64,000 nt of DNA from Nymphaea colorata (Eukaryota > Streptophyta > Magnoliopsida > Nymphaeales > Nymphaeaceae). Under the pieces are notes generated by a model. That model was given only the letters and a program-made list of their open reading frames with translations. It made no database searches and was not told the origin of the DNA. Below are positions 17,582 through 19,037 of this stretch, piece after piece. The DNA is taken from positions 20,081,002-20,145,001 of the forward strand of contig NC_045148.1 of NCBI RefSeq assembly GCF_008831285.2, read 5' to 3'. The translations under genes were made by a program, and so were the position numbers. Within the stretch, counting starts at the first letter, position 1. Every line of letters begins with the position of its first letter.

Positions 17582-19037
17582 ATGTGGAGAAGAAGCTCCA
17601 CCCTCATTGTCTTAATTGCCCTTCTCCTTCCTTTGCGGTTCGTCAACATGGCTGACAACCCCTACTGGCGTTGCATCGGCAACTCAAGCTACGAGGCGAA
17701 CAGCACCTTCAGCCATAACCTGCAGCGTGCGCTGGCCACTATGGTGGCCAACGCTTCCGTCACTGGCTTTTACAATGGCACCGTGGGCAAGAGCCCTGAC
17801 CAAGCCACTGCTATCGGCGGTTGTCGAGGTGACCTCGACGGCGAAGCTTGCCAGGTCTGTCTCTCTGACGCTGCCTCACAGGTCGCCTTGCGGTGCCCCA
17901 GAATCAGATCGGCCTTTATTGTCTTCCAAGCCTGCATCGTGGCCGCCGTTGCCGATACCACCGTACCTCCAGCTTATAGAGTTTTGTCCCTCCCGGGCTT
18001 TCAAACCGTCCCTGACCCCCAAAGATTCAATGCCATGCTCACCCTCTTCTTCTACAAGCTGATTGCCTCCGCCACCACCAACCCCTCGGGCCGTTTGTTC
18101 TGGGGCGACAAGTTCAAGTACACTCAAAACATTACTATCTACGGCATGGCGCTCTGCATTCAGTCCCTGTCCCAAAAGCGCTGCAGATCTTGCTTATACA
18201 TAGCCTTCGGCCAAATGCTCAGGGATGCTGGGGGTACAAATGGCGGTGTAGTTTATCATAACGTCGAATGCCTTCTAAGATTCGCAGTCTTTCCCTTTTT
18301 CACTCCCCTACCCCATGAGATTTATCTTAGCAGCGCCATTTCTGTCTCAGCTAATTGCTCCCCACCAGCATCCAGCAACAAGGTTGGCAGCCCCTTTCAC
18401 AGAAACCTCAAGGCTTTGCTCTCTCATCTGATAGTGTATGTACCTGTCTCTGGCTTATACGACGAGAACGTTGGTGTCGGCTCCAGCCAAGTCTATGGCC
18501 AAGCCTTGTGCCGAGGCGACATCCCTGATGACGTTTGCTGGGAGTGCATTGCCCTGGCTTCTTCTAAAATCCAAGAATTATGCCCCAATAGTAGAAGGGC
18601 AATCATATGGCTCGACCACTGCCAGTTGCGCTACTCTGACGAGAACTTCCCCGGTAAGGTAGACGTCTATGACAGGGCATGCCAACCAGCAGCAGACAAT
18701 GCATCAAATCTTCCGAACTTCTATCAGAGTTTGAGAATCCTTGTAGCCAACCTGACCTCGCTGGTGACGCAGAGCTCTCCTAATAATCGCTTCTTTGCTA
18801 CGGGAGTCTCTGTCCTTGCAGGAGCAAAGAGGATCTACGCTCTGGTGCAGTGCGTGAAAGATATACCTGCGGGCCAATGTGGGTGGTGCTTGCAAAATGC
18901 CAGCTCCGATATTGCAGCATGCTTTAATGGAAAGCAAAGCGGTCGCATCCTCAGGGGAAGCTGCAACTTGGCTTTTGGAGTGCGGCCTTTCTTCTACGGC
19001 TATCCTACTGTGATATCACTTCCGGAGCCCAGTCACG
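17582..19037 (+). CDS. CRK B exon 1: signal peptide and four DUF26 modules
   Basis: A single 1456-bp exon encodes the whole ectodomain and ends in phase 1 at CACG|GTGAGT. DUF26 modules are at about residues 31-118, 145-240, 259-352 and 367-470. N-glycosylation sequons are frequent (for example NSS, NST, NGT, NIT). The frame stays open past the donor site to a stop at 19078, so an unspliced message would give a secreted ectodomain only. Confidence 0.93.

Follow-up and report, generated by a model that had tools for sequence, protein, structure and literature searches.

Does CRK B, a receptor kinase gene of the water lily Nymphaea colorata, really encode four DUF26 modules in a single exon, and is this design peculiar to one gene or shared by its relatives? 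The 64,000-nucleotide stretch of DNA analysed here (the window) corresponds to C11:20081002-20145001 in an assembly of 407.8 Mb and 783 contigs. It carries CRK B together with related genes A, C, D and E. The answer was sought in the gene model, in the copies found elsewhere in the genome, and in trees, substitution rates and predicted folds of the modules.

The CRK B gene and its neighbours

The reading frame of CRK B begins with an ATG at position 17582 and stays open through 19037. The preliminary description had counted four C-x8-C-x2-C modules in this exon, and the cysteines are where it placed them. The motifs start at nucleotides 17822, 18155, 18509 and 18851, which correspond to C81, C192, C310 and C424, and a Pfam search recovers four PF01657 stretches with a score far beyond chance (E 5.8e-59; 197 bits, with the cut-off at 25). 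Module 1 is the weakest of the four and covers positions 2-91 of the 98 in the module profile built here.

The remainder of the gene, from the donor after 19037 onward, was assembled by eye into a seven-exon model. All six introns have GT/AG boundaries, and the spliced product is 874 amino acids long with a single terminal stop. Its kinase domain matches PF07714 at residues 563-830 (E 6.5e-49) and also PF00069, and it carries the AVK lysine, HRD at 683, DFG at 703 and APE at 730. Among 19-residue windows, hydropathy peaks in those that begin at residues 489-496 and 5-7, as expected for a membrane segment and a signal peptide; both features were called solely by hydropathy, the end of the signal peptide (near residue 24) was set by eye, and a further window at residue 110, inside module 1, nearly equals the top ones.

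CRK B combines the features that define a CRK, namely DUF26 motifs, a signal peptide, a single membrane segment, a Ser/Thr kinase and seven exons. With all four modules in one exon, it also belongs to the quadruple-DUF26 CRKs (qdCRKs). The earlier proposal that frame, signal peptide, membrane segment and kinase motifs are intact is borne out by the seven-exon model and the Pfam kinase match. Judged from its sequence, CRK B is very probably a real quadruple-DUF26 CRK gene with an intact, functional-looking model.

Several neighbours in the window are broken. In gene C, a Copia-type element sits between modules 3 and 4. Its four motifs start at 27758, 28094, 28448 and 33734, the last of these beyond the element, and a match to kinase exon 4 follows at 35666-35875. 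Gene E retains intact motifs in modules 1 and 3 only, and its module 2 is in broken pieces. A fourth module was looked for in gene E by motif, by similarity and with the module profile, and none was recognised, although a badly decayed copy could escape these searches. Four modules had previously been ascribed to both of these pseudogenes, which holds for C and finds no support for E. Gene D, which lay outside that claim, likewise has four motifs. It is followed by a kinase exon 4 match at 49491-49700 and by an exon 7 match that contains a stop.

A module-1-like fragment lies at 44180-44494, about 1.9 kb upstream of gene D, and matches CRK B residues 3-107 at 61%. Gene D lacks the same part that this fragment resembles.

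Table 1. Features of the window, in window coordinates
Feature	Position	Strand	Basis or remark
Gene A (broken), modules 1 and 2	3161..3965	+	
Gene A remnant, module 3	9297-9506		
Gene A remnant, module 4	9558-9674		
CRK B exon 1: signal peptide (residues 1 to ~24) and four DUF26	17582..19037	+	frame, motifs, PF01657
CRK B DUF26 module 1, A-type, six cysteines	17663..17956	+	boundaries as in selection analysis
CRK B DUF26 module 2, B-type, four cysteines	17975..18301	+	
CRK B DUF26 module 3, A-type, best PF01657 stretch	18335..18631	+	also predicted fold
CRK B DUF26 module 4, B-type, membrane-proximal	18665..18997	+	also predicted fold
CRK B exon 2: transmembrane segment	19727..19831	+	AG/GT sites, hydropathy
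CRK B exon 3: juxtamembrane region, glycine-rich loop	19937..20103	+	
CRK B exon 4: kinase, AVKRL lysine	20787..20997	+	
CRK B exon 5: kinase, HRD and DFG	21427..21664	+	
CRK B exon 6: kinase, APE	22096..22246	+	
CRK B exon 7: kinase end, stop codon	22972..23268	+	
Gene C (broken), modules 1-3	27527..28576	+	
Copia-type retroelement	28695-32657	-	polyprotein ORF 29313..32657, recognised by eye from translation
Gene C module 4, beyond Copia-type element	33503..33916	+	
Gene D, four motifs, module 1 without N-terminal part	46386..47657	+	
Gene E (broken), modules 1 and 3, frame-broken module 2	53485..54495	+	

Copies and origin of the four-module design

When the genome was searched with the ectodomain of CRK B, 102 matches were obtained. 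The locus counts that follow are lower bounds, because 88 of 237 candidates were scored. Thirty-one loci of the four-module type were examined, comprising genes A to E of the window and L001-L026. All lie at 19.78-20.37 Mb of contig C11 except L002, which is on contig C2, and one of them, L019, consists of modules 3-4 only. Fragments at C11:20125181, 20237281, 20324705 and 20354271 fall outside this set. The frame is open through four modules in at least 19 loci (19 of the 31: CRK B, L002-L013, L015, L017, L020, L022, L023 and L024), 18 of them within 0.6 Mb of C11. Three of the 19 open exons have defects within modules, with the start of module 4 missing in L004, the end of module 3 in L012 and the end of module 4 in L024. 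Two further four-module exons, L027 on contig C1 and L028 at C11:20058600, stand outside this main group and bring the total to 21.

The kinase exon with the AVK lysine (exon 4) was searched for with 150 of 1002 candidates scored, and stands in for the kinase of each gene. All 21 open four-module genes have an exon 4 match 2.6-4.3 kb downstream of the start of the exon 1 match. No kinase match was found for L036 or gene E in the sequence stretches searched.

The modules can be treated as two pairs, the membrane-distal modules 1-2 (p12) and the membrane-proximal modules 3-4 (p34). When each module is assigned by its mean closeness to the A or B set of 31 two-module genes, the order is A-B-A'-B' in every one of the 21 exons. 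A tree of 73 pairs was built, omitting L040 (broken), L001, L014, L016, L018, L019, L021, L025 and L026 as well as window genes A, C, D and E. In this tree the p12 pairs of the 19 main-group exons form one clade (100/99) and their p34 pairs another (98/88), which shows descent of the array from a single four-module gene. The suggestion that four modules are a feature of the cluster, not a one-off, is supported by the 19 open loci and by the monophyly of each module pair.

The pairs of L027 fall in the same two groups (99/90 and 99/84). A kinase tree was also built from 25 rows, representing seven main-group genes (D included), L027, L028 and 16 two-module genes (L029 by exon 4 only). It places L027, the seven sampled main-group genes and the two-module genes L042 and L046 in one clade (100/98). 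From the pairs and the kinase of L027 together, the architecture is therefore older than the split between the C1 and C11 copies.

Domain-by-domain trees that ask whether modules 3-4 derive from a duplication of modules 1-2 leave both duplication and fusion standing. A heterotypic fusion would have joined DUF26 pairs from two separate CRKs, after those pairs had diverged. This is what the free pair tree suggests, since it groups the array p12 pairs with the two-module C1 genes L036, L042, L046 and L059 (99/90), apart from p34, and the chimeric appearance of L059 (see below) points to movement of pairs from gene to gene in this genome. However, p12 and p34 as a single clade of common origin survive the AU test (p-AU 0.28 for pairs, 0.48 and 0.75 for single modules), and fusion is rated at slightly less than an even chance. 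The pair tree had also been considered as proof of fusion in its own right; this use of it was dropped, as the AU tests gave no support.

Duplication of one A-B pair within the exon, in this lineage and before the C1 and C11 copies split, likewise falls only a little short of an even chance. It would account for the uniform A-B-A'-B' order, and the AU tests leave it standing for the main clade. Against it are the separation of p12 from p34 in the free tree and the low identities within the 19 main-clade exons, which are only 27-42% between modules 1 and 3 and 19-31% between modules 2 and 4. L028 offers a clearer case, with modules 1 and 3 59% identical, modules 2 and 4 48% identical, and its two pairs sisters in the tree (90/69). 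It is a probable separate duplication with an independent origin. The grade is no higher because the AU test also accepts its p12 in the p12 clade (p-AU 0.275) and its p34 in the p34 clade (p-AU 0.132).

Pairs also appear to have been lost or exchanged. L042 and L046 combine a p12-type pair with a kinase of the four-module lineage and lack p34, so pair content seems labile. Their kinases group with that of L027 as sisters (100/99) within the four-module clade, and the AU test rejects a clade of the main genes and L027 from which L042 and L046 are left out (p-AU 0.014). The shorter reading of this placement, though not a proven one, is that these two genes lost p34. The L059/L062 locus (C1:34192200-34199800) is a different case. 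Over 994 bp that take in upstream DNA and the DUF26 pair, it matches L027 at 94.7%, and the match ends between modules 2 and 3 of L027. L059 is a two-module CRK, and its kinase lies outside the clade (100/98) that holds the L027 kinase. It is therefore likely to be a chimera, formed within the C1 array.

The broken DUF26 exon L040 (C5:3628750-3629900) is 45% identical to CRK B residues 8-173. It is possibly a relic of the p12 type.

Selection on the two pairs and their predicted folds

The two pairs change at different rates. When nine sister pairs of genes are pooled, pN/pS is 0.57 for p12 and 0.49 for p34, and both depart from neutrality (p 1.3e-17 and p 2.2e-22, respectively). Median dN/dS is 0.49 for p12 (170 usable pairs) and 0.33 for p34 (159 usable pairs), values drawn from comparisons that share branches and hence are non-independent. 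By these codon changes, both pairs evolve under purifying selection over the array as a whole, and the membrane-distal p12 changes faster than p34.

Six sister pairs were tested singly, with p values uncorrected for the number of tests. Between CRK B and its closest relative, L002, dN/dS is 1.10 for p12 (p 0.72 against neutrality) and 0.52 for p34 (p 0.029). Nonsynonymous changes affect 88 of 483 sites in p12 and 33.5 of 502 in p34 (p 4e-8), whereas synonymous sites do not differ between the pairs (p 0.34). No constraint on p12 is measurable in this comparison, so selection on this pair in CRK B may be either relaxed or diversifying. In L008/L012, dN/dS for p12 is 1.57, a value that stands on 15 and 3 changes (p 0.59), and the remaining seven sister pairs have p12 values below 1.

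Cysteines provide a second view of constraint. The four CX8CX2C motifs are intact in all 19 main-group exons. In the B domains of two-module genes, the stretch after the motif contains one or two cysteines in 28 of 31 cases, and CC in 18 of 31. At least one cysteine follows the motif in module 4 of 18 of the 19 main-group copies. In module 2 this stretch is free of cysteines in 17 of the 19, CRK B included, which possibly reflects a lost disulfide.

It is improbable that only p34 matters in CRK B and that modules 1-2 are a decaying passenger, since the absence of purifying selection against L002, the cysteine-free stretch of module 2 and the existence of genes with a p12-type pair but no p34 are met by clear constraint on pooled p12, by p12 motifs intact in every main-group exon and by the ten p12 cysteine codons, in which 4-5 changes between CRK B and L002 would be expected under neutrality and 0 are seen. 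The reading preferred here is that both pairs are maintained and that p12 is the more variable of the two.

Predicted folds were compared with known DUF26 structures. An AlphaFold2 model of the whole ectodomain, made with four window rows, had a mean pLDDT of 29 and was discarded. The AlphaFold2 model of p34 (seven window rows) has a mean pLDDT of 71.9 and a pTM of 0.62, and Foldseek searches with it return E values of 3e-16 to 7e-8. It matches PDLP8 with Z 17.9 (rmsd 5.9, 200 residues aligned) and PDLP5 with Z 17.8 (rmsd 4.4, 194 aligned); because the rmsd over the pair is large, the relative placement of the two p34 domains is unsettled. The p12 sequence can be aligned with most of PDLP5 chain 6gre, from residue 16 to 211 out of 228 (E 8.3e-16). 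The PDLP5 and PDLP8 ectodomains (6gre, 6grf) thus share the tandem-DUF26 fold with CRK B, by model for p34 and by sequence for p12. PDLPs are unlike CRK B in having two modules and no kinase.

The single DUF26 fold of ginkbilobin-2 (Gnk2; 3a2e, 4xre) matches module 3 with Z 16.5 and an rmsd of 2.0 over 102 aligned residues. We take the mannose-binding residues of Gnk2 to be N11, R93 and E104, and the alignment places S, I and S at these positions in module 3. In the available text of PMC6368629 the mannose-binding residues are named Glu130 and Arg132. If that numbering is offset by 26, they equal E104 and R106, where module 3 has S and E. Module 3, the one module aligned to Gnk2, therefore differs from it in that the mannose-linked residues are replaced and not conserved. 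The structure comparison also returned two fungal lectins, 4nds (Z 9.0) and 5v6i (Z 7.9), in agreement with PMC6368629.

Known four-module CRKs and a working model

The preliminary description set four modules against the two normal for the family, and prior description of four-module CRKs was to count against it; such description largely exists. According to the available text of PMC6237359, four DUF26 modules occur in 11 of 91 CRKs in soybean, 7 of 53 in Medicago truncatula and 2 of 54 in Phaseolus vulgaris, in one exon each, and also in CRKs of cotton and fruit trees. Several of these genes are expressed, and three soybean ones are PAMP-induced. Two four-module CRKs of Phaseolus, CRK9 and CRK26, are also described in the accessible part of PMC6356535, and in PMC11536441 the introductory account gives CRKs 'one to four' DUF26. 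In the portions available, a 32-species survey reports more than two DUF26 in few CRKs, all of them from eudicots (PMC6368629), and wild rice CRKs are given one or two DUF26 only (PMC9406443). The word 'Nymphaea' does not occur in the main text of PMC6368629 as available. No report of four-module CRKs from Nymphaeales was found among the matches listed in a search that lay outside most subscription literature.

As far as the available texts describe them, the legume quadruple-DUF26 CRKs share with CRK B the placement of four modules in one exon followed by a transmembrane exon and kinase exons, and they also have a history of tandem and segmental duplications. The soybean proteins have 903-948 amino acids against 874 in CRK B, and the water-lily set, with most of its open exons in a single short stretch of C11, is larger than the legume sets. 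Two-DUF26 CRKs (ddCRKs) have one ectodomain exon, one transmembrane exon and five kinase exons (PMC6368629, available text). CRK B has the same seven exons, signal peptide, DUF26, transmembrane and kinase regions and tandem expansion; it differs in its double ectodomain.

The architecture itself is therefore known, and what is new is the lineage, the scale, and the evidence for differing rates of p12 and p34 and for loss or swapping of pairs between genes. The abundance of four-module CRKs in an early-branching flowering plant may also be new. The papers cited place four-module CRKs in eudicots; with the water-lily genes they now extend to the ANA grade, so that one old origin and repeated origins can be tested against each other directly.

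A working model for CRK B can be proposed. The signal peptide would take the protein out of the cell, where two tandem-DUF26 'claws' would stand in series on one membrane anchor, with an RD-type kinase inside. Because the whole-ectodomain model failed, we infer this serial arrangement. The more constrained p34, next to the membrane, might serve as the core for coupling to the kinase or a partner, and the faster-changing p12 might act as a variable recognition head. That a doubled ectodomain could bind a longer or two-site ligand, as first suggested, is a speculative addition to this picture. With the whole ectodomain in one exon, a pair can be gained or lost through unequal exchange or fusion in a tandem array while the splice phase is unaffected. 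Such exchange or fusion is a likely route to four-module genes.

More broadly, but tentatively, the water-lily four-module CRKs could be a major class that is independent of the legume ones and has at least two origins here. Their pairs would be swappable cassettes, with a constrained proximal and a fast distal claw, and the p12 of CRK B would be a diversifying recognition head. The probability of this entire picture is rather low.

To our knowledge, the ligands of CRKs remain largely unknown. A large natural set with one more conserved and one faster-changing pair offers a ready comparison for distinguishing a ligand-binding pair from a kinase-coupling pair. The comparison includes sister genes with a single pair only (L042, L046) or with a different kinase (L059).

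Elsewhere in the assembly, long open rbcL frames occur on contigs C70, C168 and C669, besides the plastid-like C783 (159,842 bp). They point either to nuclear copies of plastid DNA or to additional plastid contigs left in the assembly.
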